Origin: Owenia fusiformis
Lineage: Eukaryota; Annelida; Polychaeta; Sabellida; Oweniidae
Assembly: GCA_903813345.2 (NCBI GenBank)
Contig: CAIIXF020000010.1
Coordinates: 26,872,425 to 26,936,424, forward strand
DNA: 64,000 nucleotides
Direction of reading: 5' to 3'
The position numbers and the translations under genes are program-made. Position 1 is the stretch's first letter. Every line of letters starts with the position of its first letter. Shown here one piece after another: positions 16,701 to 64,000 of this stretch. The notes beneath the pieces are model-generated. The model was not told where the DNA came from, searched no databases, and saw nothing but the letters and a program-made list of their open reading frames with translations.

Positions 16701-19700
16701 GCAAACTGCGAAACTTTTAATTAATTTCAATTGCGAATCGATTGAAACGATTGAAATGCCCAAAACGACGTAAGCATTGGAACGTAGGGAATGATGCAAG
16801 CATTGAAACCATTGAATTGATTTGAAAAGATTGAAACGCTATTTACAGTGTTTAGAAGAACGTATGGTACTAACAAAAATGTTAGACCTTCCTCTACAAC
16901 ATGTGAAAATATGAAAGGATTCTTGCTGGTAATAAGGAAAATATAGCCCGTTGCAGAGGTTCACTTTCTTTGGACCACCCTGTACATAAAGGTATCACGT
17001 TCTCATTGGTCAATGTGCTGTATGTCATATACCGCAGGTGAATCTGTCATACACCGCAAGTGAATATGCCATATTCGTTGCGGAATATGACATATTTTTG
17101 TATCGTGTTTACCGCGTAACAACTATTCTGATTAATCCATTATCCAAAGGTAGACAATATAGTGTCATAAAATGATAAAATAGAAGAGCGTCAAAGGTGT
17201 CCGCATAATACGTTCATGCAATCCCGATTTAAAGGTAAAATATGAATGAGAGCTATACGCGTTTGCTGATCTATGGGAAGTTGTTCAAGATCTTTAGGAC
17301 TGTCTCCCGGGGACTCGACTGTCTATACCTATTATTACATTCATTGAGCTTGTCCGCTATGCATCAACCAACTCTTGAGTACAATTATCAAATAGAGTAA
17401 AACCCGATCATGCATACATGCATCAATATGTTTCTCATTCTGTAACCCAGAAGGGTTATTAAAAACGAATTGCAGCAAACAATCGCTCTTCAGAACGAGG
17501 CTCACGTACATTATTCCGGACATTAATAAAATACCTCGTTCTGGAAGAGGGATATTAAAACGGAATAATATAAATATTAATCACTCGTCAAAACGAGTCT
17601 CACTTATCAACCAATCACAGAATGAGAAACATAACAGTCAGCTGATGATAAAAATATTTATAACTTTACACAAAATTAGTAAAATGTGCAGTTATAAAAA
17701 ATGACCATTGTGCAAAGGTATTAAAAGACACTATAAAGCATATGGTAATAACTGGTTATTGTAAAGCTATTAACTTGTCGTGTGGAATCAATAATGGTAT
17801 TTTCATTATACCTTGCAGAGAAACTTATCGCATAGATACATAAGTGGTACTAATAGTCATATTAAATTTTAACACAATTAGGAATTAATCAAGGTTTAAT
17901 ATCAGAGTTAGCAAAATTACAAGTACTTTGTCTAGTATCTAATTTTAGGATTATACAGCAAAGCTATTAACTAATCTCTACTTACCGTAAATGGTTGTAG
18001 TCAATAAACTTTTTCTGTGCGTCATATATTTGATCTTTAATCTCAACAATTTCTTTCTTGCATCTGTCTATTTCCACCAGTTTCATGTTTTCAACTGAAA
18101 TAGAAAAGATTCCAGATCCTCCACAGCCTAGTAAAATACTACAATCTTATATCAATATTAGTACCTCAAAAACAATATAATACCCATTTTCTTAGATTCA
18201 CTTATCATAGTTATTGGAGTTCTTGAAGTATGGAATTGCAGTAGTCAGTCCCATAATTAAATAACAGTTTAGACATTATCATTTACATTCATATAGTATA
18301 GTATAGCCAAAAATAGATATATTAATTTCAAAGGTTTTAATCTACATATCAGAGTATGAACAATTGGATATCATAAAAGTGAGCTTCAATTCCAGGGGTA
18401 CTTGTAATAGTGAGCGATTTACAAAAGTGAGCTTCAATTCCAGGGGTACTTGTAATAGTGAGCGATTTACAAAAGTGAGCTTCAATTCCAGGGGTACTTG
18501 TAATAGTGAGCGATTTACAAAAGTGAGCTTCAATTCCAGGGGTACTTGTAATAGTGAGCGATTTACAAAAGTGAGCTTCAATTCCAGGGGTACTTGTAAT
18601 AGTGAGCGATTTACAAAAGTGAGCTTCAATTCCAGGGGTACTTGTAATAGTGAGCGATTTACAAAAGTGAGCTTCAATTCCAGGGGTACTTGTAATAGTG
18701 AGCGATTTACAAAAGTGAGCTTCAATTCCAGGGGTACTTGTAATAGTGAGCGATTTACAAAAGTGAGCTTCAATTCCAGGGGTACTTGTAATAGTGAGCG
18801 ATTTACAAAAGTGAGCTTCAATTTCAGGGGTACTTGTAATAGTGAGCGATTTACAAAAGTAATTTAATTCAAACGTTTGAGACAACCAGTCGACTATACC
18901 CTTGCGGAATAAATACTCACATTCCATCTTCTTTTCGAGATTATTCAACCTCTCCGAGAGATTTTTCTTCATTTCTTCTATCTTGAATGCCCTGAAATGA
19001 AAATATGAGATTATCTTCTTGCTAACAGCAAGTTTGGTGACATGTACAATGCTTTTTTCTCCCCGTTGAGAAATCCGAACTTTCCCATTTAAGAGTATTG
19101 AGCTAGGTTAGCCACAGTACAAGCTTATGCCGTTGTGTCGGCCCTAACTTCTAAATGTGTTGTGTTGGTGAAGTACAATGTAGTCCTGACTCCATAGTTT
19201 TGAAGCAAGACTCACAATTGGTGGGCTTTTGAAAGATATATGTTTATAAACATGATAACATGATTTTTAATCACCAATGAACAATTTGCCACTGAATTAA
19301 AGCTAATTTTGACAATGATCCATGCAGAGTGATGAAAGAAACAGACGAAACTCCTTTTTGGCATTGATCTAACTATAACGTCATGAGCTGACCATGCGTT
19401 TGCCTACCTGTTGAATTGTTCCGACACCTGGTGTAAGACAAGCTGCAACATTTCGTTTCCGTCTGCAATTAAACACGTTTGGATGGATAAAGAAAATTCC
19501 AATGCAGGAATTATTGATCTATAGTAAAATGGGGGCTACAGGCACACAAGGGGAGGAATTCGGCTTGATTACAGTCTGATGGTTTGCTTTGTCTACACGT
19601 ACTCCTTAAAACATAAACATCTAAGTCGTAGATAGATGATGCAAAATCCGAGATGAGTACGATTCGTATGACTTTAAATGATCAATCGATGAGCAGGAAA

Positions 19701-27688: not shown

Positions 27689-30600
27689 ATGTCTGCAGAC
27701 TCTGTAGTCAGCATGCTGAGGGAACCTAGCACTGAGCAGAAACTTCCACCAGCTAGGGAGTTTCCGAGATATAGCAGCTGTTGTTGTGGAAAACCTAACA
27801 CTAAGATTGAGCCAGAGACATGGTCTAGCCTACTGGTTGAAATACGGAAAAATCGTTGGCTTCAAATCTATCATTATCATCCAACAGTGAGGGACAAACA
27901 ATTTCAGATTGAGTTAGAGACTTATTTGAATTATCGTAAGACGGGGAGAGATTTTACACGTAAGCAACAACTTTTACAACTGTTGCAAGTGAAACAGAGG
28001 TCTCGATCAAACTCAATTATATCTAATAATTCTCTGTTGAACTCTACTGTCCGTAAGAAAAAAATTACAAGTGACTCCATGAAAACAGAGTGGAGTGGAA
28101 GTGGAGTCATACCAGGTAGTGTTGTTGGGTCAGACTCAGACATCAATGTTAGAGATACTAATGGGGGGCAGACTGCACCTAAATCATCTGACAGTTCTGT
28201 AAGTGTTTATACAGATAATAAGCCATTAATTGGGATTGAAAGTACAACGAATAATCACCAGAATAAGACAGACACTGCTTCAATAGCAATGGGCCATAGT
28301 GATGTGATAACAACAGCAAGAGACACATGTGGACATAATATATCACTAAAAAGTCCCAGTTTGGATATTCAAAATTCTGACAGTGAAAGTATTAACACAT
28401 CAAGAGATGTCCAAATATCTTTAGCTAAATCACAACAGGGAATAAATCAACACACACATGACAAAGATCAAGGCAATATTGGGACAAAGATGGACAGAGA
28501 ATCTCCTGGTGCTGTTGACAATTATAACAAACTACCTCATAGCTTTGAACACATTGGAACACAGAGACCTGCATCTAATGACTCCCAGGATCTCTCATCA
28601 GAAGGTTCTGAGAGATCTGTGAACCAAGACAAAGGAACTATGAACCAAGACAAAGGAACTATGGACCAAGACAAAGGAACTGTGAACCAAGACAAAGGAA
28701 CTGTGAACCAAGACAAAGGAACTTTGGACCAAGACAAAGGAACTATGAACCAAGACAAGGGAACTATGGACCAAGACAAAGGAACTATGAACCAAGACAA
28801 AGGAACTGTGAACCAAGACAAAGGAACTTTGAACCAAGACAAAGGAGATCATAGTGCAGTTCTCTTCTTCTTTCATGGTGTTGGTGGTTCAGCCGATGTT
28901 TGGAAGCCACAGGTTGACTATTTCCGCAAAGAAGGTTATGAAATTATAGTTCCAGATCTTCTGGGACACGGCTACAGCCAGGCCCCAAAGACACAATCTG
29001 CATATCATTTTAAAGAACTCACCAAAGACATTGTGGCAATATTTGATAGATACTGTAAGAGAAGAAATGTCATTATAGGTCACTCTTATGGGTAAGCATA
29101 GCAGTTTGTAGATTAAGTTAACTAACCAAAATTAAGTTATTTCTAGACCTCCATATGTTTCTGGAGGTATAATATACTACATCTATCATATAATGGTTCT
29201 AAATGTACATGCAAGTCATGCCCTCACAATTTTTCTTTGCTGTCTTCTCCCCAGGATTGTTTCTCAAGTGGATGCCAAATTCATATTTACACAATTTAGA
29301 CCTTTGCTCAAAATATGCTGGTTTTTCCATTCTCATTTTATGGATTCTTATGTGGGTGCAAACCTATTAATAAAATCTCAAGTGGATGAAGCAACCACTA
29401 GCTTTAATGCTTGGGAGATCACTGCTATTTAAGAACATATTACATGTAATGTTATAATAGATTTATTGTGACATGTTGTCTTGTATTTTCAGGACATGTT
29501 TTGCAACAATTTTAGCCAGACAGCGCTCTCTCTATGTGACCAAGATGATTCTTATCAGTGGGGGAGGCCCCACCCCCCTTCAACCCCAGCCAGGGATATT
29601 CTCACTGCCTTCCTGCCTCCTTGGCTGCCTCAAACCCATTCTAGTCTGTGGATTTAAAAAGTAAGTTTCCAGAAGACATAGATGTAAAACAATAATAAAG
29701 TCATATATCACTGTTGGGATGAATTCTTAGAATACAGTATGATAGCAGCATTCTCGACATCAGTCATATATCACCCAATCAACACCTGTCATGAATACAT
29801 GTATGGCCATAAGAAGTAGATTCTTTGTTTTGTGTCAATGACACTGTCAATTTTGATGCACATCGAATTATCCACCATTTCGTCTGATTCTGATTGAATG
29901 AAATGCAATGGTACTTTTAGACCCTTGTGATTGCTATTTGGATGTGTTTTTTTTGATTTACTCAAAATCGTACAAGCAAGCAAACCAAAGAATCTACTTC
30001 TTATGGCCTATGTGGCCCAGTCAATAACAAAATACATGTAAGCATGTGGTTTTGTCTTTCTCTATTGTATTCAGGAATTGACAATGAAATGATTATGTGT
30101 TTTATTTAAGACATATTATAAATCATTTCGATTTTACAATATTATAGCTTAATAAGTTTCACAGATACATGTATTCCTGTTTTCAGATCTGCATTTGTGA
30201 CAAAATCAAAAACATATGTACCAAAAGAAAAAGCTTTTGATGTTCCGTCCTATGTGTTGAAGCACACAATGAATGGCCAAGATTGGCTAGATGGTGATGA
30301 GAATTATCACAGATGGATCACAGTACCAACACTACTTATCTATGGGATGAATGACCCCCTGGTCACTCTCTGGGAGACACAGGCTATGCAAAAAGTATGA
30401 GTCAACTTGTGATGGACTAAGACATTTTTATGTACAATACTATTTATATTTTAGCGTTTCCTTCTCATGAGATTTAACTTGAGATTGACTTGTTTATTGA
30501 TGGTCCTGTCACCTTTTTGAGCTCTAATTTTGACAATTTATTAACCAGTCTACACAAACTTCAAATTCTGCTTTAAAATGTTTAGGCCTAACGGGCCCCA

Positions 30601-39400: not shown

Positions 39401-42400
39401 TCTGTTTCGATGCCTTTGTTTGGTGTATCCCAAAAATTTCAGATTGATGGAACTAAGTCTAGTGTCCCATCTAGTGAATTCCAAAATGCCAGGTATAGAG
39501 ATCTCCACTCCCAGGTCTCCATTCCAGTCTGTACTGAATCTGGCATAGATTGCCCTAGCCCTGTTTAGGACTCTAAATTTGTCGTTATTAGATTTGAGAT
39601 TTGACCACACTTCAGGGTGGGTGTGGCATATCGACGTTAATCCTGTGCTTGGCTTGCTATGATTAACTGAAAGTGTTACTTATGTACATGTATAAGTTTT
39701 TATCTGTATCCAAACATGCTTTTATAATCATAATATGGTCAAATAAATTATCTTTCAATATTTAACTTTTTAGATTGGTATGCAAAATATGGGTAGGTAT
39801 ATTGTAGGTTCCTTTAATAAAATATAAAATTACCAAACTTTTATTATAGCATGTTATGATTGTATTATTTATGATCTAAGTATTTGATTTCAGTACAGTT
39901 GAGGGATGTCTGTACATGGGTGCCAATCCTAATCTGGTTCTGCCCGATGGTGCCGCTGCCATGCACATTAGTGTTGGGGTGGACAGTGACCAAGCAGAGG
40001 ACTTTGTTAAACTCATGATTCAGTATGGTGGTAATCCCAATGTCCAGTGAGTATTCATCCATGTAAACTAAGACATAACTTATTGATAAAATACCCTCTT
40101 AAAAAGATTAGCAAGCTTTATAAGAATCCATTTTATCCCTAAGTTTGGTTGGGATATTAGTGAAGCTCTCTGTTAGTCCAACCGTGCAAAAGGATTTATA
40201 ACTAAATTTTGATAGTTAAAAGTCATTTTAGATCATAAAAAATTATTTTGACTTTTCACATTAACTTTTAAGTAATCCTGACCCAAAATGCTACACATTT
40301 CCCAATTTACATCATGATTTTTTTTCTTTCATCTCACATGATGGATCAAGCTTTTCTTGTGAACCCGTACCAATAGATATATGAAAAAAGGTATACTGGT
40401 AATAGGTATAGAATGTGGATCTTTGAAATTTTTCAGGGATACAGAAGGAGTAACCCCACTCCATGCAGCTGCCAGCTGGGGTAGAGCAGAGATCCTCAAA
40501 TTATTATTGGTCAATGGAGGAGACCCTACTCTCAAAGATCAGGTATATTTAGTGCCAAATCTCATATCAACTTGAAACAGGATCCTGAGTTGAATTAGAT
40601 TTTTACAGCTTTGTAGTATTTGACTCTTATGATGCAATTTGACATACTACACAGCCAATCTCCAATATACCGCACCATAGTACCATAGACTTACAGTACT
40701 GTATGCATGGTATCATGAACTCTGTACAGCACCATACTCAAATGGTACCGCATGGTGCCATACTCTTAACCTACTGTAAAGTACAATGATTTCAGAGTGC
40801 GGATAGGCAACTTATAAAACTATAACCAAGACCTATTATAACTGGTCAAAACAACCATATATGGTGACCTGGTTTTAAAGTTCTGTTGGAGGAATGTCTT
40901 TATACGTAATGTCTTAATAACCAGATGGGGACTAGTGAGTAATGGACTCTATTTTAATACATTACAACCATTCTTTCTTTGCAGGATGGTATGGATGTGG
41001 AGGCCTATGCCCTTGAGTCTAAAGATGACCTCACCATTAAATATGTTGAACTGTTTGCATTTAATGAGAAGGGTGATGATTCCAGTGAGGGTGAAGATAA
41101 GCCAGTGGAGCATTATACCTTGGAGTTACTAGGTATGTATGCCATTATTACATCTTTTAAAATTGGAGCATCTAAGGTCTAGGGCTGTATTGTATGCAAC
41201 ATATCTATGCAAGTGATTGCATCTTGAACAATAACATTATTTCATTGCATAAAATTAATCAGCCACATTGCAATTTTTGTTAAATCTGTTTCTGTTTTGG
41301 TAGATACAAAGGTCCATTGTTTCAGATGCTGGGGATAAAAATTCACGGTACAGTTGGGGAACCAGTTCTTGCAGAAGCAGTTGGGGTAGACACATGGCCC
41401 CCTCTCCACCCCTGGAACCTGGTACCAGCCCCCCTCCATACAATTCAAACACATGTACTATTCACCCACATCCTTCTCACCCACATATAAATCCTGCCCA
41501 TATGCACAGTGAAGATGTGGCTAATGGAGACATCTGTGATGAGATCTACAAGCTGTACATCGACTCTGCGGACAAGACAGAAGAAGAAGACAATAAACTA
41601 CATAAGAATGACTTTTTGGAGCCAGTGAACAGAATAACTAAAAATCAACAGGATAACTACATCAAACCCAGTAGGTTGAGTAATGTATTTGAACCTAATA
41701 GCCACAACAATCCAAAGAGAAGTAAACGAAGCCAACGTACTAGACTGTCTATTCCAGTAAAGCAACGCCAAAGTTTCTATACTTCCAAAGTGCAGGCAGT
41801 TCTCAATGATGACTATGATCAAGGTTCACAAATCTTTGATGTCACTTCCCCAGATCATCCCATTGTGGTTGAGCGGCAATCCCTGGATGATACAATGGAG
41901 AAGATAGAACGCAGGAGGTCCAAATATCCAATTATATCCTCTAAGGACGGATATTTTAGGGTAAGCTGAATTGTATAAATCCCATCCTCAATGGTAGCTA
42001 AATTTTCAGGTTAGCCAAATTATTTAGAACCTTTGGCAAAAATTCCTGCAAAAATGACTGCCATTTGTATCATGGAAGAGTTGCCCGTTTGAATACAAAC
42101 TTGATAGTATTCACTTTTCTGCAAAGTCAATTCATGAATATTATAACATATGGCTTAAAAATATTTGTGTATTATTGATATTGAAATTCAAAACTCCTGT
42201 AGTTCCAGGTTGATTCTGAAATCTCATTTGCTAGTATAGCACACAGAGACCAAGATGATAGAGACATGGCCTGCCAGCAGGAACATGTAGGTTCTCCATT
42301 CAAAAGCTACAGGACTCGGAGCAAATCAGCTAGTTTATCTAGTGGGAATGAGTCCTTTGAATCCTGCTCTAGTGGGGGATCTTATCACTCTACACACAAC

Positions 42401-45400
42401 AACTCCTTGGAGTTACCCAGTGCTAAAGACACTTCATCTCATGTTAAAGACAAAGATAATGCATCTGCTGGTAGTCTATCAAGCAAAAGTGACATATTTT
42501 ATGACACTGTAGAACCAAACTCCATTAAACCTGTATATTTGAAACCACTTCCCATGTGCCATGAACCCCATAGCCCGAGTGACAAAGTGCCCAATACTGC
42601 AAAAAGAAGTAATGACAAGGTGCCCAGTGCATCCAAAAGTACTAATGACAAGTTGCCAAGTACAGCCCAAAGTATCAACAATAAAGTGTCTTGTTCATCC
42701 AAAAGTACCAATGACAATTTGCCAAGAATAGCACAAAGTAACAATGACAAGGTGTCCAGTACATCCAAAAGTCCCAGTAACAAGGTACCCAGTATGGCCC
42801 AAAGTACCTATGACAAGGTACCCAGTACATCCAAGAGTACCCATGACAAAGTGCCCAGTACAGCCCAATACTACAGAAGCATTAAAGATGGTCAAATCAA
42901 AAAGGAAGAAAGAACTGATACGGACTCACTCAATGACAGCCTCCTCAGCCATCTAACTCAGTTGAAATTGGGAGATACCCCTAAATCTAGCAAACCTCAA
43001 GTCACCAAGTACAAACCAAATAAACCAAGTGTTGATTTATTTACATCAGATGAAAGTGACTTGGACACTACATTAAATATTTTGTCAAAAAGAAACCGTT
43101 ATAGTATTAGAACACTCAGAAAGCCCAATGGATATACACCCTCTGAGCCCATGGAGCATTGCAATTGCACATGCCCTCCTGAGGATGGGGACTCAGAATA
43201 TAGCAGCACAAGTAGCTTGTCTGACAGACTTTCCTCAAGTGGAATGAGTGGGAGAAACTCTGTGGGGAGTAACCAATCATGTCGGTCAGAACTGAGCAAC
43301 TATAGTGAGGGGGCCTCCATCATGCATCTCTACAGAGATGATCAGGAAGACTGTTCATTAATTGAGCATCATTATCTTCCTGATAGTTCATTATATTCCC
43401 ATCATTCGCCTGATGTTTCCCTGTCTTTAACAACCCTGGGAATCAGTAGTGCACTAGAGCCACTGTCTAATGAGGAGATCAGGGCTCAACTTGTTGCAAT
43501 GGGAGATCAGCCAGGACCCGTAGTGAACAGTCTCAGAGACGTTTATCTAAAGAGGCTTGCAAGACTGAAAAATGACCCTGATTTACCAAAAATCATAGTT
43601 AAATCTACAGAATCGGGTATGTCATCCTTCTCTGTTTAAAAACAATATGTATTGTCTGTCCTTAAGACAATAGGTGAATTAATTACATGTAAAAATATGC
43701 AGTTCAATACAATTATAACAGCTTTGGATTTTCCAAATTTGAGGTTACAAATCCTTAAGTTACAAATCCTTAGATTTTGTCATTTTAATGGATTGGTACT
43801 ATAGATTACATGTACTTGATCAGCAAGGCAGTCCATATTATCACAAAAACAAATGATTTTAATGATTAAGTCGACACTTTCACATTTACTTCCTTTTAGA
43901 ATACCTTCCAGAGCTGACTAAAGCTTTAGAAGGAGATCTCTATCCCAGTGATGTCAGTGTGATGGAGCAGCACATGGAGGCACCATTCAAAGACTCTGAT
44001 CCCTCCCTCAAGTGGAGAGAGGGCACCCTAAAGACTAGCTTCAACTATATACTACTAGACCCTAGATTTACACAGAATCTGCCCTCCAGAGCAAAATATA
44101 TGAGTAAGTTAAATACGTTATGTATGTGTTGAAGTGTCTTCCCATTTTACAAAGGCCAGTAAAAAAGGCTAGCAAGAGCTTACCACTTTGCGCATTTTAC
44201 CTTTAGAACTGGATTGTTTAATGTTAAAGATCATGATTTTTGTAAATTGGAAATACAGCTATTAATACATAATTATGACTGGCTTCACAGAAAATAAATA
44301 ATCCTGTTTGATAACCTCAATTTACATATCTTAGCCTCAAACAAAATCACATTTTCCTGTTCTTGTAACTTCAGAAATGTACTCAGTATTAATATTTACC
44401 AACTTTTCTATTGGATTTCCATTTAATTGTGATTTAGGTGACACAGGATGTGTTCCGAGTGTCTCTAGTGCCAGATATTCTACATCTAATTGTGTTTCTT
44501 ACATATAGGTGAGCAAGATGTGTTCCGAGTGTCTCTAGTGCCATCTATTCTACATCTAATTGTGTTTGTTACATATAGGTGAGCAGGATGTGTTCAGAGT
44601 GTCTCTAGTGCCAGATATTCTACATGTAATTGTGTTTCTTACATATAGGTGAGCAGGATGTGTTCCAAGTGTCTCTAGTGCCAGATATTCTACCTCTAAT
44701 TGTGTTTCTTACATATAGGTGAGCAGGATGTGTTCCAAGTGTCTCTAGTGCCAGATATTCTACATGTAATTGTGTTTCTTACATATAGGTGAGCAAGATG
44801 TGTTCCGAGTGTCTCTAGTGCCAGATATTCTACATCTAATTGTGTTTCTTACATATAGGTGAGCAAGATGTGTTCCAAGTGTCTCTAGTGCCAGATATTC
44901 TACATGTAATTGTGTTTCTTACATATAGGTGAGCAGGATGTGTTCCGAGTGTCTCTAGTGCCAGATATTCTACATCTAATTGTGTTTCTTACATATAGGT
45001 GAGCAATTTGTGTTCCGAGTGTCCCTAGTGCCAGATATTCTACATCTAATTGTGTTTCTTACATATAGGTGAGCAAGATGTGTTCCGAGTGTCTCTAGTG
45101 CCATCTATTCTACCTCTAATTGTGTTTTAGGTGACTCAGGATGTGTTCCGAGTGTCTCTAGTGCCAGATATTCTACATCTAATTGTGTTTCTTACATATA
45201 GGTGAGCAAGATGTGTTCCGAGTGTCTCTAGTGCCAGATATTCTACATCTAATTGTGTTTTTTACATATAGGTGAGCAAGATGTGTTCCGAGTGTCTCTA
45301 GTGCCATCTATTCTACATCTAATTGTGTTTCTTACATATAGGTGAGCAAGATGTGTTCCGAGTGTCTCTAGTGCCATCTATTCTACATCTAATTGTGTTT

Positions 45401-48400
45401 TAGTTGACTCAGGATGTGTTCCGAGTGTCTCTAGCACCAGATATTCTACATATAATTGTGTTTCTTACATATAGGTGAGCAGGATGTGTTCCGAGTGTCT
45501 CTAGCACCAGATATTCTACATGTAATTGTGTTTCTTACATATAGGTGAGCAAGATGTGTTCCGAGTGTCTCTAGTGCCATCTATTCTACATCTAATTGTG
45601 TTTCTTACATATAGGTGAGCAGGATGTGTTCCAAGTGTCTCTAGTGCCAGATATTCTACCTCTAATTGTGTTTCTTACATATAGGTGAGCAGGATGTGTC
45701 CGAGTGTCTCTAGTGCCATCTATTCTACATCTAATTGTGTTTCTTACATATAGGTGAGCAGGATGTGTTCAGAGTGTCTCTAGTGCCAGATATTCTACCT
45801 CTAATTGTGTTTCTTACATATAGGTGAGCAGGATGTGTTCAGAGTGTCTCTAGTGCCAGATATTCTACATGTAATTGTGTTTCTTACATATAGGTGAGCA
45901 GGATGTGTTCCAAGTGTCTCTAGTGCCAGATATTCTACATGTAATTGTGTTTCTTACATATAGGTGAGCAGGATGTGTTCCAAGTGTCTCTAGTGCCAGA
46001 TATTCTACCTCTAATTGTGTTTCTTACATATAGGTGAGCAGGATGTGTTCCAAGTGTCTCTAGTGCCAGATATTCTACATGTAATTGTGTTTCTTACATA
46101 TAGGTGAGCAGGATGTGTTCCGAGTGTCTCTAGTGCCATCTATTCTACATCTAATTGTGTTTCTTACATATAGGTGAGCAGGATGTGTTCCGAGTGTCTC
46201 TAGCACAAGATTATTCTACATCTAATTGTGTTTCTTACATATAGTTGAGCAGGATGTGTTTCGAGTGTCTCTAGTGCCAGATATTCTACATCTAATTGTG
46301 TTTCTTACATATAGGTGAGCAGGATGTGTTCCGAGTGTCTCTAGCACAAGATTATTCTACATCTAATTGTGTTTCTTACATATAGGTGAGCAGGATGTGT
46401 TTCGAGTGTCTCTAGTGCCAGATATTCTATATCTAATCGTGTTTCTTACATATAGGTGAGCAGGATGTGTTCCGAGTGTCTCTATTGCCAGATATTCTAC
46501 ATGTAATTGTGTTTCTTACATATAGGTGAGCAGGATGTGTTCCAAGTGTCTCTAGTGCCAGATATTCTACCTCTAATTGTGTTTCTTACATATAGGTGAG
46601 CAGGATGTGTTACAAGTGTCTCTAGTGCCAGATATTCTACATGTAATTGTGTTTCTTATATATAGTCGAGCAGGATGTGTTCAGAGTGTCTCTAGTGCCA
46701 GATATTCTACATGTAATTGTGTTTCTTACATAAAGGTGAGCAAGATGTGTTCCGAGTGTTCATCAGTGCCAGATATTCTACATGTAATTGTGTTTCTTAC
46801 ATAAAGGTGAGCAAGATGTGTTCCAAGTGTCTCTAGTGCCAGATATTCTACATGTAATTGTGTTTCTTACATATAGGTGAGCAGGATGTGTTCAGAGTGT
46901 CTCTAGTGCCAGATATTCTACCTCTAATTGTGTTTCTTACATAAAGGTGAGCAGGATGTGTTCCGAGTGTTTCTAGTGCCAGATATTCTACATCTAATTG
47001 TGTTTCTTACATATAGGTGAGCAAGATGTGTTCCGAGTGTCTCTAGTGCCAGATATTCTACATCTAATTGTGTTTCTTACATATAGGTGAGCAAGATGTG
47101 TTCCGAGTGTCTCTAGCACCAGATATTCTACATATAATTGTGTTTCTTACATATAGGTGAGCAAGATGTGTTCCAAGTGTCTCTAGTGCCAGATATTCTA
47201 CATGTAATTGTGTTTCTTACATATAGGTGAGCAGGATGTGTTCCGAGTGTCTCTAGTGCCATCTATTCTACATCTAATTGTGTTTCTTACATATAGGTGA
47301 GCAAGATGTGTTCCGAGTGTCTCTAGTGCCAGATATTCTACATCTAATTGTGTTTCTTACATATAGGTAAGCAGGATGTGTTCAGAGTGTCCCTAGTGCC
47401 AGATATTCTACCTCTAATTGTGTTTCTTACATATAGGTGAGCAGGATGTTTTCAGAGTGTCTCTAGTGCCAGATATTCTACCTCTAATTGTGTTTCTTAC
47501 ATATAGGTGAGCAGGATGTGTCCGAGTGTCTCTAGTGCCAGATATTCTACCTCTAATTGTGTTTCTTACATATAGGTGAGCAGGATGTGTCCGAGTGTCT
47601 CTAGTGCCAGATATTATACATCTAATTGTGTTTCTTACATATAGGTAAGCAGGATGTGTTCAGAGTGTCCCTAGTGCCAAATATTCTACATCTAATTGTG
47701 TTTCTTACATATAGGTGAGCAGGATATGTTCAGAGTGTCTCTAGCACCAGATATCCTACCTCTAATTGTGTTTCTTACATATAGGTGAGCAGGATGTGTT
47801 CCAAGTGTCCCTAGTGCCAGATATTCTACATCTAATTGTGTTTCTTACATATAGGTGAGCAGGATATGTTCAGAGTGTCTCTAGCACCAGATATCCTACC
47901 TCTAATTGTGTTTCTTACATAAAGGTGAGCAAGATGTGTTCCGAGTGTCTCTAGTGCCAGATATTATACATCTAATTGTGTTTCTTACATATAGGTAAGC
48001 AGGATGTGTTCAGAGTGTCCCTAGTGCCAAATATTCTACATCTAATTGTGTTTCTTACATATAGGTGAGCAGGATATGTTCAGAGTGTCTCTAGCACCAG
48101 ATATCCTACCTCTAATTGTGTTTCTTACATATAGGTGAGCAGGATGTGTTCCAAGTGTCCCTAGTGCCAGATATTCTACATCTAATTGTGTTTCTTACAT
48201 ATAGGTGAGCAGGATATGTTCAGAGTGTCTCTAGCACCAGATATTCTACATCTAATTGTGTTTCTTACATATAGGTGAGCAGGATGTGTTCCGAGTGTCC
48301 CTAGTGCCAGATATTCTACATCTAATTGTGTTTCTTACATATAGGTGAGCAGGACGTGTTCAGAGTGTTTCTAGCTCCAGATATTCTACATCTAATTGTG

Positions 48401-50309
48401 TTTCTTACATATAGGTGAGCAGGACGTGTTCCGCGTGTCCCTAGTGCCAGATATTCTACATGTAATTGTGTTTCTTACATATAGGTGAGCAGGATGTGTT
48501 CCGAGTGTCCCTAGTGCCAGATATTCTACATCTAATTGTGTTTCTTACATATAGGTGAGCAGGATGTGTTCCGAGTGTCCCTAGTGCCAGATATTCTACA
48601 TCTAATTGTGTTTCTTACATATAGGTGAGCAGGATGTGTTCAGAGTGTCTCTAGCACCAGATATTCTACATCTAATTGTGTTTCTTACATATAGGTGAGC
48701 AAGATGTGTTCCGAGTGTCCCTAGTGCCAGATATTCTACATCTAATTGTGTTTCTTACATATAGGTGAGCAGGACGTGTTCAGAGTGTCTCTAGCACCAG
48801 ATATTCTACATCTAATTGTGTTTCTTACATATAGGTGAGCAGGATGTGTTCCGAGTGTCTCTAGTGCCAGATATTCTACATCTAATTGTGTTTCTTACAT
48901 ATATTAGGTGAGCAGGATGTGTTCAGAATATTCATCAGTGCCATATTTTACATTGGAAAGGGCAAGAGAAGCAGGCCCTACCAACACTTCTATGAGGCCA
49001 TCAAACAGAGGGATTCACCCAAGCCTAAGGTATACATTCCATTATGTTAGCTCTCTGATGTGAAAATAATGTTCCCTCGATACATCCAACATTTTACATG
49101 TTAATTCAGAGAGAATATTGGTGACAAACCCTTCAATATTTACTCATCTTTATGAATGAAACATAATGACATTACATATTGTAACATTTTGGTATGCAGT
49201 CAGTAGTTTATCCATTTGGAACTCTTTTTATGAATACTGTTCAATTGATGCATAATTGATATGATTAAATATTCTCTATAGTGTTAGAGGAAATCTCAAG
49301 AAATTAGTAAGCCCAAGTAAAGAGCAATATTCCAAGAGTTATGGAGACTTTTAGTCATAATTGTTTTCAATTTCATAGAAGTGATAATAAGTCTTTCATG
49401 ATTAATTGCTTCCAGTGCAGTGCAAAGGTTCAGAGGATCCTAGATATATGGTCTGAAGGCTATGGGCCAGTGTCTCTGCACATCTTCCAGAATACCATTC
49501 CAGTAGAGGCTTATACCCGAGAGGCATGTATGGTAGAGAGTATAGGTGAGTTTCATTAGAATGTTATACATGAGAGGCGTGTATGGTAGAGAGTATAGGT
49601 GAGTACCATTAGAAGGTTACACAAGAGGCATGTATGGTAGAGAGTCTAGTTGAGTTCCATTAGAAGATTATACACGAGATGCATGGAGGTAGAGAGTATA
49701 GGTGAGTACCATTAGAAGGTTACACAAGAGGCATGTATGGCAGAGGTATCTAGGTGAGTTCCTTTAAAAGATTATACACGAGAGACATGTAGGTGGAGAG
49801 TAAAGGTGAGTGCCATTAGAAAATCATCCACGAAAGGCATGTATGGTAGAGAGTATAGGTGAGTGCCATTAGAAGGTTACACAAGAGGCATGTATGGTAG
49901 AGAGTATAGGTGAGTACCATTAGGAGAAGCATGTATGGTAGAGAGTATTATTAGGTGAATTGTGATGCAATATATTATGCAAGTAATTTCACCTTGAACA
50001 AACTGTTCGGTTAACATTACTGTAGGCCAATGTTGTCAATTCTCCTTTGAAAACTAGTGGAGACACAGTAAAAGGAAATTGTATGTGTATGTGGGAAAAC
50101 TGAACAATATTACATTAATTGGTTGTTATGTTTCAGGACTGAGTAGGTTGACCAATCAGAAGAGTGGGGATTATTATGGGATATCTAGCACTTGGAAACC
50201 ACTTGATAAAAGAAAGTTGGGGGTCCATCTCTTAGTGAGAGCCATGAGGGTGCTTCTGGCAGAGGGAGAGAGGCAGATCACACCCAGGGACATCAAAATA
50301 GGACAATAG
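33452..50309 (+). CDS. ANKLE1: Ankyrin repeat and LEM domain GIY-YIG nuclease
   Basis: The family is a DNA endonuclease that cuts branched and bridged DNA late in division. Coding exons: 33452-33501, 39894-40046, 40437-40542, 40985-41132, 41326-41960, 42209-43616, 43900-44103, 48908-49029, 49416-49545, 50137-50309. All phases agree, giving 1042 aa. Ankyrin repeats occupy about residues 5-120 (TPLHAAASWGRAEILKLLLV). A long polar region follows. The LEM domain is at about 780-825 (LSNEEIRAQLVAMGDQPGPV). The nuclease starts near 870: FNYILLDPR, AIFYIGKG (914-920), RPYQH, VEAYTREACMVES and LTNQKSG, ending AEGERQITPRDIKIGQ. The human protein is shorter; the extra length is in exons 5-6. Exon 1 (MLLEHELIEALQGEDI) joins exon 2 to form the first ankyrin repeat, which supports this distant start. 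Introns 7 and 9 contain arrays made from the adjoining exon borders. Confidence 0.95.
34648..36578. mobile_element. Long-arm inverted-repeat element, GCCAT duplication
   Basis: Ends CACAGGC(T)GGTATCGAAAA and the inverse TTTTCGATACCTGCCTGTG, flanked by the direct repeat GCCAT (34643-34647 and 36579-36583). The arms run about 415 bp each (34648-35065 and 36163-36578), through TTTGTCCGCTGTGACGGAGC, the tactccatgcaatg region and the tgtaccatttcttttatttc region. The centre has no transposase; the 144-codon frame at 35794-36228 mostly runs through arm and AT-rich filler. It is a foldback-like, non-autonomous element. Confidence 0.82.
35509..35672. mobile_element. Small MITE nested in the foldback element
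   Basis: ACTGTAAAACCTGTCTCAAT at the left and ACATGTTTTACTGTA at the right form inverted ends of about 14 bp. The inside has repeated 'gtgaacac' words. Related termini occur near 32127, 55070 and 1620. The ends resemble pogo/Tc1-type elements, but the assignment is tentative. Confidence 0.55.
36823..37758 (+). pseudogene. 5'-truncated LINE with perfect 13-bp target duplication
   Basis: The direct repeat ATCTGGCTCGCTG lies at 36810-36822 and 37759-37771. The insert ends in an A-rich tail (gaaatgaaaaaaa). Within it one frame encodes the C-terminal RT region (HLGFIFDNRFKFDIHINELA, LIYNSFILPHLDYCSS, LDRLHYKAALSC) to a stop at 37320. Another frame gives the terminal CxCG-type zinc knuckle (CVCGKSATQKHLILHC, stop at 37742). 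At least two frameshifts separate them. It is a CR1/Jockey-type remnant inserted by target-primed reverse transcription, complete only at its 3' end. Confidence 0.85.
37985..38056 (-). other. tRNA-like sequence, possible SINE head
   Basis: On the minus strand it reads ATGTGGTCTAGGGGGAAAA, then CATGGTTCGACTACCGG about 30 bp on. These look like a Pol III A box (GTGGTCTAG, as in tRNA-Glu/Gly) and B box (GGTTCGACTACC). No convincing acceptor stem closes, so this is more likely a tRNA-derived SINE or a tRNA pseudogene than a working tRNA. Confidence 0.35.
39301..39414. repeat. Near-perfect 114-bp palindrome
   Basis: The arms read GGCATCGGAACAGAGATAAC then a C run then ACTCAGTCTATGTACATAGT, and back through ACTAGGTACATATACTGAGT, a G run, and GTATCTCTGTTTCGATGCC. 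The centre is at about 39357 (AAATAATATTATTTAC). It lies 480 bp upstream of ANKLE1 exon 2. As RNA it would fold into one long hairpin. It is probably a minimal hairpin MITE. Confidence 0.85.
42209..43616 (+). CDS. ANKLE1: ANKLE1 exon 6, polar repeats and LEM domain
   Basis: The largest exon (1408 bp), residues 365-833. It opens VDSEISFASIAHRD, comparable to DASFVTAVEV in human ANKLE1. Residues about 490-580 (42590-42870) contain about eight loose 13-residue repeats of the form KSTNDKVPSTAQS. A cysteine-containing EHCNCTCPPEDGDSEY stretch follows. The LEM domain closes the exon, which ends TCG G|GTATGT in phase 1. Confidence 0.92.
42590..42870 (+). repeat. ANKLE1: In-frame 39-bp repeats (NDKVPSTxxS) in ANKLE1
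   Basis: About eight units of 39 bp encode KS(T/N)NDK(V/L)PSTAQ-like 13-mers with alternating SK and AQ endings. The units have diverged (5-6 differences each), so this is an old expansion in a presumably disordered linker. Confidence 0.85.
44438..48907 (+). repeat. 70-bp array copied from ANKLE1 exon 8 acceptor
   Basis: About 64 units (4470 bp / 70) fill nearly all of intron 7. The unit is GTGAGCAGGATGTGTTCCGA, gtgtctctagtgccagatat, tctacatctaattgtgtttc, TTACATATAG. The exon 8 border is TTACATATATTAG|GTGAGCAGGATGTGTTCAGA, so each unit copies the polypyrimidine tract, AG and the first ~45 exon bases. A unit near 46735-46785 keeps 'gttcatcagtgcc', closer to the exon. The first unit (44438) starts from GATTTAG|GTGACAC, and shorter units appear near 45129 and 45408. 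In every unit AG is followed directly by GTGAGC, a strong donor. Confidence 0.95.
48908..49029 (+). CDS. ANKLE1: ANKLE1 exon 8, nuclease core, begins with GTGAGC
   Basis: Encodes SEQDVFRIFISAIFYIGKGK and on to DSPKPK, with the YIG half of the GIY-YIG motif (residues 914-920) and RPYQH. The acceptor is ATATTAG|GTGAGC: the exon itself starts with a donor-like hexamer, the hallmark of recursive-splice exons. It is in phase with exons 7 and 9. Skipping it, or splicing to an upstream array unit instead, would destroy the nuclease. Confidence 0.94.
49416..49545 (+). CDS. ANKLE1: ANKLE1 exon 9, nuclease domain
   Basis: Encodes CSAKVQRILDIWSEGYGPVS then LHIFQNTIPVEAYTREACMV, ESI (residues 943-985), aligned with human ANKLE1 over its full length. 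Two nearby AGs exist (49415 and 49420); only the first keeps the frame. The donor ATAG|GTGAGT is the first of a tandem series. Confidence 0.93.
49520..49960 (+). repeat. ~52-bp tandem repeats of exon 9 end plus donor
   Basis: About nine units beginning with the exon itself: gaggcatgtatggtagagag, TATAG|GTGAGT, accattagaaggttacacaa. Donor GTs fall at 49546, 49599, 49702, 49754, 49806, 49859 and 49910. The unit near 49651 is mutated to TAGTTGAGT. Each unit copies the last ~25 bp of exon 9, its 5' splice site and ~25 bp of intron. Downstream donors would lengthen the exon by a non-multiple of three in most cases. Confidence 0.9.
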
Positions 50310-52768: not shown

Positions 52769-59314
<6,546 letters not shown>

Positions 59315-61521: not shown

Positions 61522-64000
61522 ATGGGGAGTGAGATGATTGAGAGCGTGCCAGACAGTGAGGATGAAAATGAGGACTGGTCATCAGCAGCTTGGGAACACA
61601 ACCCTGAACGAGCAGAAGGTGAGGTACCTTTTAACATTGAGCGTTGAATTGAGTTTCCAAAACTGCTGTTTTTCTACATTTGAACAAATCTTGATTAATC
61701 TGCAGAATTTATACTCCATACACGTATGTCAGCTAACAGCTTGATCACTTATGAACTTGAGTCATGGTTCTGTGATGACCCGCGATAACCAGCTGTAGTG
61801 GCTAGCCTTGATGGCTCAAGCGGTAGAGCCTTGGACTTTGAAATGGAAGGTCCTGTATTTGATGCCTGCTTGGGGCATTGTATATGTATTAAGCACACTC
61901 CTTTTCATACAAATGTTGTTTCATATCCCACAAATGGAGCGTATAGAGCGTCAAATGTTTCTGAATCTGTGAAATTGGGAACTGTGATGTCAATGTCATG
62001 ACTCATGCTATCATCGCAATCATAGCTCAATGGCACGTTGTACATCGATTTTAAACCACCTTTCTAGTGGATGAATGTATATTCTGTGAACATTTGAATA
62101 TGATCAACTAAATGGCACAACCTGTCTTCCACTGACTATTAATCTTAAGACCTCTAGAGTTGTGATCTTTAAAGTAGTGAATCCAGGCATCCAGGTCGGA
62201 TACAGTAAGTTCTTCTTCATCTTGATTGTGTTTAATACTGTTTATTCATTCACAGGTACAAACCTGGTAGGGTCTTGCCTCCCCCATGATGTACCCTTTA
62301 AGGAAGGATCAAGGGTCTCTGATGATGCTAAACTACAAAACCAGGTACAAGAAAGTAAAAGTGTCAAACAAGAGAAGTCAGTGTTATTATCTGGCATGCA
62401 GTTGAATGATAACAAAGCTGGTATGACTGGACTGGATAAGGAGAAGATAAACAGAATTATCATGGAAGCTTCAAAAGGTATGTACAGTGCAATACACTTT
62501 CCCATTATTTTGGAACCCATTGAAGCTTAGTTGACTCCCATTATTTTAGTACACATTAAAGCTATTGATTCCCATTATTTTGGAATCAATTGAATATATT
62601 GACTCATTATCTGAGCTTAATTGACTCCCATTATTTTTGTACCTATTGAAGCTATTGACTCCCATTATTTTGGAACCCATTTAATATATTGAGTCATTAT
62701 CTTGGAACCCATTGAATCTATTCACTCCCATTATTTTTGAACCGATTGAAATTATCGCCTCCTATGATTTTGGAATCCATTAAAGCTATTGACTCCCATT
62801 ACTTTGTAACCCATTGAATCTATTGACTCCCATTATCTTTGAACCTATTGAATCAAATTGTGAACTCCTCTATGTTAAATGTAAAATGCTAAAATAGTGT
62901 GTTGTGATTGCAGGCTCGTCATTCTATGAGAATGAACAGAAGAAGGAGAAGCAGATGGAAGTGAGATTGGAGGAACAGAAGAGGAAACTTGCTGCAATTC
63001 CTGCACATAAAATCCTAGAAGGAGAGAAACAGGTTAATCCCTTATTAATATATCACCTTTGAGAGACATGTTACTCTACATTGGCACTCCCATTTAAGAA
63101 AATAAGAATATCCTATGACGTGTTGTGTACCATTCTGTATGTTTAACCAGACCTGGGATCTGATAAGACTTGTTAACAATAATAGATTTTCTATTGTAAA
63201 CAATGTGTATTCTTTTTTTCCTTGCAGGCTGACAGACTTCTGTGTGAGCTGGAGTCAACTAGAGATATGAGTCATACCATTGTACATGTTGACATGGATG
63301 CATTCTACGCTGCTGTGGAGATGAGGGATGATCCAACACTCAGGGATGTCCCCATGGCTGTAGGGGGACTAGGAATGCTGGTGGGTGCAGTATTAATTTG
63401 GATATTTCACCCTTAGCAACATACAGTGTACTTGCCAAGTGCTTAAATACATTTAGAATACTGTGTTATATGAGTTCATGAATCATGCTTAGTTACTTAT
63501 ATTTGAAAGTATATTTCAGTGATGGTTCAAATTCATTTTTAAATTGAAAAAGAAACTGTTATTCTGGAACATATCTGGACGTTCATAGTGTAAAATTGCC
63601 GTGTTTGTTATTTCAGTCAACATCAAACTACCATGCTAGGAAGTTTGGAGTGAGAGCCGCAATGCCTGGGTTTATTGGCAAAAAGTTATGTCCTGATCTA
63701 GTCATAGTGCCTACTCACTTTGACAAGTACACTGAAGTGAGCAAGCAGATCAGGTCTATCATTGCAGAATATGATCCTGGATTTGCACCTATGAGTCTAG
63801 ATGAGGCCTATTTAGATATAACAGAACATTTAAACAAGCGGCAACACTTCAGCATCGAGGAGAGAACTTTCTATAAACGCCCTGATGATACAAAGTTCTG
63901 CGTGTGTAATATGAATTGTTCAAAGTACCATTGGATGAAGAGAAAGGAAAATGAAGAGATGGTTGGTGCAACACCAGTTGTTGAAGCTATGGATGAACAA
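61522..64000 (+). CDS. POLK: DNA polymerase kappa, N-terminal part
   Basis: Y-family translesion polymerase of the nucleus; it extends mismatched ends and bypasses minor-groove lesions. Coding exons in the window: 61522-61618, 62256-62477, 62914-63032, 63228-63380, 63617-64000 (open at the edge), 325 codons. [20 protein letters not shown] is the N-clasp start typical of Pol kappa. The palm has [17 protein letters not shown] (D168) and [11 protein letters not shown] (D259, E260), the three carboxylates of the active site. [20 protein letters not shown] is almost as in human. Residues 1-80 before the clasp ([16 protein letters not shown] start, [10 protein letters not shown]) are longer than in human. 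Near the edge the insert [17 protein letters not shown] has four Cys/His and replaces a non-conserved part of the vertebrate protein. Fingers, little finger and zinc knuckles lie beyond the window. Confidence 0.95.
61795..61885 (+). mobile_element. tRNA-derived SINE head
   Basis: TGATGGCTCAAGCGGTAGAG fits a Pol III A box (TGGCTCAAGCGG), and GGTCCTGTATTTGATGCC, about 35 bp on, a decayed B box (GGTTCGAnTCC). The spacing fits a tRNA-derived SINE in POLK intron 1. I could not fix its 3' end; no A tail is obvious. Confidence 0.45.
62500..62860 (+). repeat. 34-40-bp minisatellite in POLK intron 2
   Basis: About ten diverged units of cccattattttggaacccat, tgaagctattgact. Lengths vary by several bases and two units are truncated to 'actcattatct'. 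It lies immediately after the exon 2 donor (62478). I looked for derivation from the exon border and did not find a convincing one. Confidence 0.85.

Follow-up and report, generated by a model that had tools for sequence, protein, structure and literature searches.

Intron 7 of an ANKLE1-like gene in the annelid Owenia fusiformis is occupied almost entirely by a tandem repeat in which most units place a splice acceptor directly before a donor-like hexamer. The question raised by this locus is whether the series acts as a recursive-splicing ladder, as a sequence-only reading had proposed, or has a simpler origin. The window, i.e. the whole stretch of DNA that was analysed, comprises 64,000 nucleotides (assembly GCA_903813345.2, contig CAIIXF020000010.1, positions 26,872,425 to 26,936,424 of the forward strand), and positions below are counted from its first nucleotide. 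On the evidence assembled here, the array is very probably a junction minisatellite of the kind named "mirage" in amphioxus, that is, a passenger amplification with largely normal splicing from 44103 to 48908.

The ANKLE1-like gene lies on the + strand of the window, and its ankyrin-repeat stretch was matched by Pfam Ank (3.7e-8). The LEM-3_GIY-YIG domain was found with an E value of 4e-63 over the peptide joined from exons 7 to 10, with the nuclease domain spread across these four exons and the open frame intact across them. Protein searches with the ANKLE1 exons returned four matches at one genomic place only, where the match for exon 7 is listed with two stops because it overruns its own donor. 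Elsewhere in the window, a 21-bp in-frame repeat (NQDKGT-like, 28620-28846) lies in an open frame that continues as alpha/beta-hydrolase-like sequence, and which we take to be ABHD8-like. In human, ABHD8 lies next to ANKLE1, so the two may long have been paired. Two stretches of ETF_alpha (electron transfer flavoprotein alpha subunit; Pfam 5.7e-19 and 1.4e-6) were also seen at 53611-54311 on the - strand.

Table 1. Features of the ANKLE1-like gene (window positions) and arrays at apparent exon/intron junctions elsewhere in the Owenia fusiformis genome (by locus; values are Pfam E values)
Feature	Position	Strand	Description	Exon end shared by later copies	Basis or source
ANKLE1 large exon	42203..43616	+	LEM domain, 4.8e-09		left end, stop-to-stop frame; right end, read by eye
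Third array	42580..42868	+	33-bp in-frame coding repeat, 11 residues, e.g. DKVPSTSKSTN
ANKLE1 exon 7 (numbering of the sequence-only reading)	43900..44103	+	donor GA|GTAAGT		open frame and Pfam on joined peptide
ANKLE1 intron 7	44104-48907	+	4,804 bp
Tandem array in intron 7	44435..48907	+	64 copies (~70 bp) of intron 7/exon 8 acceptor junction		TRF, unit splitting, alignment
ANKLE1 exon 8	48908..49029	+	122 nt, begins GTGAGCAGGATGTG, codes S-E-Q-D-V; donor AAG|GTATAC
ANKLE1 exon 9	49416..49545	+	donor TATAG|GTGAGT
Second array	49500..49923	+	~8 copies of 53 bp, exon 9/intron 9 donor junction
ANKLE1 last exon	50137..50309	+	GLSRLTNQ...KIGQ, then stop
L005			donor of Rieske exon, 3.4e-8	~9 bp	AGGTGAG list
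L001			open coding-like frame without Pfam support	up to 18 bp	AGGTGAG list
L027			tetraspanin-like, 0.058, below cut-off		AGGTAAG list
L028			Muted, 5.9e-15	up to 43 bp	AGGTAAG list
L029	G000:C1:5215300-5219900		56 copies of 56-bp unit across donor of WD40 exon, 3e-8	up to 34 bp	AGGTAAG list
L030			open frame, no Pfam		AGGTAAG list
L052	G000:C2:33677900-33682700		acceptor array, 57 TACAGGCT sites, ~57 bp spacing, unit TTATTACAG|GCTAGTGACAG		GTAGAGA list
L054			PRDM2_PR, 2.2e-4, below Pfam's own cut-off	up to 47 bp	GTAGAGA list
L059			EGF, 2.1e-8	up to 51 bp	GTAGAGA list
L037			donor spanned; open frame, no significant Pfam; GAGTGGA overlaps donor	36 bp	GAGTGGA list
L039			TSP_1, 1.4e-15, donor spanned	10-14 bp	GAGTGGA list
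L041			donor between two NIDO-like exons (E 0.04, 0.05, below cut-off)	59 bp	hand-picked, contig C2

The repeat in intron 7 was resolved by TRF as one array (44435-48924, period 70, 64.3 copies, 92% matches, score 7555), and cutting it at the junction gave 64 units with 45 distinct sequences, which confirms the roughly 64 tandem units of about 70 bp that had been reported. The accompanying statement that they fill almost the whole 4.8-kb intron also holds, the array making up 93% of its length. AGGTGAGC occurs 57 times in 44431-48930 (56 internal units and the one true exon 8) and nowhere else in the window, so a chance origin of this clustering is excluded. When a 281-bp piece of the array was compared with the genome, all 19 of the matches listed fell inside the ANKLE1 array. 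One acceptor-donor string had been quoted for every unit, and this stood in its general form, AG|GTRAGC being present in 59 of 64 units (AG|GTGAGC in 56 and AG|GTAAGC in 3), but not to the letter, as TATAG|GTGAGC is found in 52 of the 64 internal units and AAAG|GTGAGC in 4, with AG|GTGAC in 2 others and the GT lost in 3. Three units (44435, 45128 and 45401) have a shorter, differing acceptor. TAAT is missing from no more than one of the 64 units, CTAAT is found in 48, and a pyrimidine tract accompanies them; the true exon 8 acceptor forms the 65th site of the series. Mean unit identity was 0.915-0.928 at spacings of 1 to 12 units, indicating an array that is homogenised and without strong order in this one allele. 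No clear higher-order period was seen at unit distances 1 to 12 of the ANKLE1 array, and no gradient of exon-likeness was found along it (Spearman 0.19, p=0.13).

When set against the intron 7/exon 8 junction, the unit consensus matches it both before and after the AG: 20 acceptor bases and exon 8 up to about base 46 are covered, and the two sequences differ there by a few base changes and short gaps. Common to the unit and the exon 8 junction is TTGTGTTTCTTACATA...TAG|GTGAGCAGGATGTGTTC, with homology reaching approximately exon base 46, and the exon part of the unit alone gave an alignment score of 46, compared with a maximum of 24 among 2000 unit shuffles. An exon 8 variant, TTCATCAGTGCC, was found within the window only in one unit (46759) and in exon 8 itself (48931). 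By alignment, the unit is a tandem copy of ANKLE1's own intron 7/exon 8 junction, consisting of ~20 bp of acceptor and ~50 bp of exon. Exon 8 starts with A|GT GAG CAG GAT GTG TTC (S E Q D V F), and the "donor hexamer" GTGAGC is, when read in this frame, the first six bases of exon 8, i.e. coding sequence and not an added ratchet. AG and GT would then be juxtaposed in each unit because the copied coding junction has an exon that starts with GTGAGC. What remains of the recursive-site form ascribed to the units is an acceptor with a donor-grade hexamer right behind it (59 of 64 units), but that hexamer is the copied start of exon 8. Most probably, the apparent series of splice sites arose as a side effect of tandem duplication and is not a splicing machine.

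A second array within ANKLE1 lies at the other end of an exon (Table 1). Exact copies of AGGTGAGT are found at 49544, which is the true donor, and then at 49597, 49700, 49752, 49804, 49857 and 49908; the unit consists of the end of exon 9 and its donor (GAGAGTATAG|GTGAGT), and later copies share up to 35 bp of the exon 9 end. Compared by eye as consensus units, the 53-bp and 70-bp repeats have little in common beyond the junction string TATAGGTGAG. Two arrays were noted outside the gene. A 34-bp array (window 62499-62854) starts shortly after the donor of an exon, presumably one of DNA polymerase kappa, and apparently does not run across the junction. A 48-bp array (window 18375-18860; 10 copies, 99% alike) is open in three frames over both strands, with no splice junction evident at that array.

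According to the junction-minisatellite account, a segment covering the last part of intron 7 and some 50 bp at the start of exon 8 would have been duplicated in tandem. Slippage or unequal exchange would probably have raised the number to 64 copies, all on the intron side, with the outermost right copy remaining the real exon and the donor-like hexamers being exon 8 coding sequence carried along. Splicing would stay largely normal, with the last acceptor favoured by exon definition because no other acceptor is separated from the exon 8 donor by the length of an exon (122 nt), whereas occasional use of a decoy acceptor would yield an exon-8-like insert with a premature stop and loss by NMD. 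Passenger amplification with the last acceptor picked by exon definition is the simplest account of these observations, and no new splicing machine would be needed for ANKLE1. When variants present in at least 8 of the 64 units were mapped, 1 of 10 such columns fell between the branch site and donor position +6, which covers 29 of 70 positions (p=0.028), and likewise 1 of 10 fell between the branch site and the AG (23 of 70 positions, p=0.09). This scarcity of common variants near the acceptor could hint at constraint on splice function. In a test of seven arrays, uncorrected and including L arrays that had been found by requiring the AGGTGAG motif, a calmer AGGTGAG core was indicated by p values of 0.049 (ANKLE1 5' array), 0.047 (L006) and 0.098 (L005b), the other four giving 0.21-0.71. 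Selection on the splice core was considered as support and set aside, the signal over the seven arrays and the variant columns being mixed and weak.

It is possible, though not probable, that tandem duplication is mechanistically drawn to exon/intron junctions as a mutational hot spot, of which ANKLE1 would be one outcome. Searches for spaced heptamers lend this some weight. Three-copy AGGTGAG was found 1648 times per 41,968 single sites (3.9%) compared with 341 per 38,345 (0.9%) for its reverse, GAGTGGA, at gaps of 45-75, which makes it 4.4 times commoner per single site than this one control heptamer at equal spacing, although pattern matches within one array are not independent of each other. 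With gaps of 20-50, three-copy AGGTAAG occurred at 1621 per 62,839 (2.6%) and its reverse at 539 per 79,990 (0.7%), the excess per single site being 2.1- to 3.8-fold over three controls, and GTAGAGA and its reverse gave 525 per 43,665 and 855 per 69,152 (1.2% each). Arrays were then taken from the matches listed. For AGGTGAG, all six clusters among the matches listed were examined, and L005 and L001 lie at junctions while four do not; for AGGTAAG, four of six were examined, two low-complexity ones being omitted. Nineteen of the 20 GTAGAGA clusters among the matches listed were examined (one near-copy omitted; edges visible in 16), of which L052, L054 and L059 span a junction, as were seven of nine GAGTGGA clusters among those listed for contig C1 (two dispersed-repeat copies omitted). 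The count excludes two more, hand-picked clusters from contig C2.

Outside the window, six arrays were found at the donor of an exon with a Pfam match at E<0.001 (L005, L028, L029, L039, L054 and L059), five of which share at least 13 bp of exon with later copies, L005 being borderline at ~9 bp. In L027, L028, L029 and L030 the shared exon end reaches maxima of 34 to 46 bp. The closest parallel to the ANKLE1 array is L052, also a large acceptor array, in which the last TACAGGCT site precedes an open frame without a Pfam hit and AG|GCTAGT is present at 54 of 57 sites; unlike ANKLE1, it has no donor hexamer. L052 shows, as judged from its repeat unit, that acceptor arrays can be large without having a donor. 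Visual inspection of open frames, in which small exons could have been missed, revealed no coding junction spanned by L002, L004, L006, L031, L032, L033-L036, L038, L040, L042, L045-L047, L049, L050, L051, L055, L056, L058 or L060. The same applies to L003, where the frame is open through a 33-bp unit that is perhaps a coding repeat, to L043, which begins ~54 bp past a coding-like frame without a Pfam hit, and to L057, which lies ~130 bp past a channel-like frame (Pfam ASC, 0.039). These calls leave out L048, together with L044 and L053, in which the array fills the whole stretch and its edges lie outside. L049 and L050 are similar arrays at two similar loci ~128 kb apart on contig C2, each ~80-100 bp upstream of a neurotransmitter-symporter-like frame (for L049, Pfam SNF, 0.023, below cut-off).

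From the splice-neutral heptamer lists, 5 of 26 arrays (23 inspectable) span an apparent coding junction, where ~1 would be expected by a rough estimate. The binomial p value is 0.004 at a chance rate of 4.2% and 0.05 at 8%, the lower rate assuming a 55-bp unit and ~380,000 junctions in 498 Mb. This number of junctions combines the published count of 26,966 genes for Owenia fusiformis (PMC9977687) with an assumed intron number. Against the idea of a hot spot, the chance rate depends on assumed intron numbers, two of the five arrays (L037 and L052) have no Pfam support, the exon end shared in L039 is just 10-14 bp, GAGTGGA itself overlaps the donor in L037, and junctions were recognised by eye. 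Doubtful as well is the proposal that arrays arise far more often at junctions, donors and acceptors alike, which would make splice junctions a mutational source of minisatellites, with the ANKLE1 ladder being tolerable as mis-spliced intermediates are partly re-spliced.

The array might instead act as a decoy or rheostat that absorbs U1/U2AF or captures exon 7, its length tuning the amount of full-length, nuclease-bearing ANKLE1 through poison splicing, but this is unlikely. From each of the 64 internal acceptors, the reading frame meets a stop before it reaches exon 8, after ~9 to 69 codons and mostly after 24, which bears out the earlier expectation that an exonised unit would read SEQDVFR... 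and then stop, truncating ANKLE1. In addition, the unit donor gave a U1 duplex energy of -9.5 compared with -5.6 and -5.7 for the authentic donors of exons 7 and 8 (ViennaRNA duplex, kcal/mol, a crude energy and not an assay); because the unit donors out-pair the true ones, interference with splicing is quite possible. However, amphioxus mirages with AG/GT signals were reported to leave regular splicing apparently undisturbed (PMC3087553), and the sequence analysis gave no evidence of selection for decoy strength.

Least probable is the recursive-splicing ladder, in which exon 7 would join successive unit acceptors, a donor would be regenerated each time and the intron would exit in 70-nt or multi-unit steps: although AG|GTRAGC follows a pyrimidine tract and TAAT in 59 of 64 units, a donor-like site lies ~70 nt downstream of each acceptor in most units, as RS-exons require, and recursive lariats have also been described in small to medium introns (PMC10156609), the regenerated donor GA|GTGAGC (ATGA|GTGAGC) has a U1 duplex energy of -4.6 compared with -9.5 for the RS-exon-type donor of the next unit, the AG|GTGAG core is no calmer than the rest within the array (mismatches 2.4% vs 4.0%, rank test p=0.705), and the 57 TACAGGCT sites of L052 are without a donor after the AG (0 TACAGGT). 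In flies, the stronger of two competing donors tends to win (PMC8605326), so with a weak regenerated donor the 70-nt, stop-bearing piece would tend to be kept. Fly ratchet points are also described as ultraconserved, in the sense of conservation between species (PMC8605326). Ratchet-like pairs TTTCAGGTGAG at 40-70 bp gave 4 matches at 3 loci compared with 1 for the reversed pattern, and no exon was evident at the array in the two of these three loci that were examined (L031 and L032). Taken as a whole, the evidence in the DNA goes against a ladder of 70-nt steps, and the original proposal is weakened to that extent.

The junction minisatellite remains the preferred reading, and what is new is its breadth, with copies of junctions in several genes of Owenia fusiformis. 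A fluorescent-protein query, for a family in which amphioxus is rich, found no match in this genome, although the tool used recovers ANKLE1 exons of ~45 residues; a COX1 query gave no hit either. Boundary minisatellites, which the literature seen so far describes as a peculiarity of amphioxus, would on this evidence recur in another lineage, as the arrays suggest. Sixty-four near-identical acceptors before one real exon offer a natural test of how the spliceosome chooses an acceptor, and of the way in which new introns may arise from duplicated junctions.

Several known systems resemble the ANKLE1 array in part. No report of such junction arrays in annelids was found among titles and abstract openings of open-licence literature; the intronic minisatellites of earthworm metallothionein are not placed across junctions in the text examined (PMC12783039). 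Dual-specificity splice sites share with the ANKLE1 unit an AG|GT that could act as acceptor or donor. Zhang and colleagues reportedly demonstrated such dual use by transcripts in 2007, whereas in ANKLE1 it is known as a sequence form alone. Recursive or ratchet sites (Drosophila Ubx, kuz and Bx; long vertebrate introns) likewise have AG and GT juxtaposed with a donor downstream, but the ANKLE1 unit differs in being a copied coding exon start with a weak regenerated donor and no calmer core within the array, and in occurring by the dozen, one every 70 nt in tandem along a 4.8-kb intron. Intron gain by AGGT-containing tandem duplication reportedly also makes splice signals by duplicating a gene segment (PMC4974935), whereas the ANKLE1 copies lie within an intron that was there beforehand. 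In human segmental duplications, tandem repeats that alter splicing have also been described at exon-intron boundaries (PMC2812944). The nearest relatives are the mirages, tandem repeats across exon/intron boundaries in the amphioxus Adh3 and globin genes, where 5' and 3' boundaries can both be duplicated, AG/GT signals persist in many of the units, though not in every one, and regular splicing is left undisturbed as far as can be judged from Adh3 data and globin RT-PCR (PMC3087553); PGBD5 and troponin C were later added (PMC3902484). Like the mirages of Adh3, BflGb6, BflGb9, PGBD5 and troponin C, the arrays of ANKLE1 have a boundary-spanning unit and affect 3' and 5' boundaries, the aligned 70-bp unit holds the intron end and the adjoining exon part of the same gene, and AG/GT is kept in many units (AG|GTRAGC in 59 of 64, with 3 of 64 lacking the GT). 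ANKLE1 differs from them in its annelid host, in combining two boundary arrays and a coding repeat in one gene, and in its copy number of 64, far above the 6 and 3 given for the globin BflGb6 haplotypes in the text consulted (PMC3087553).
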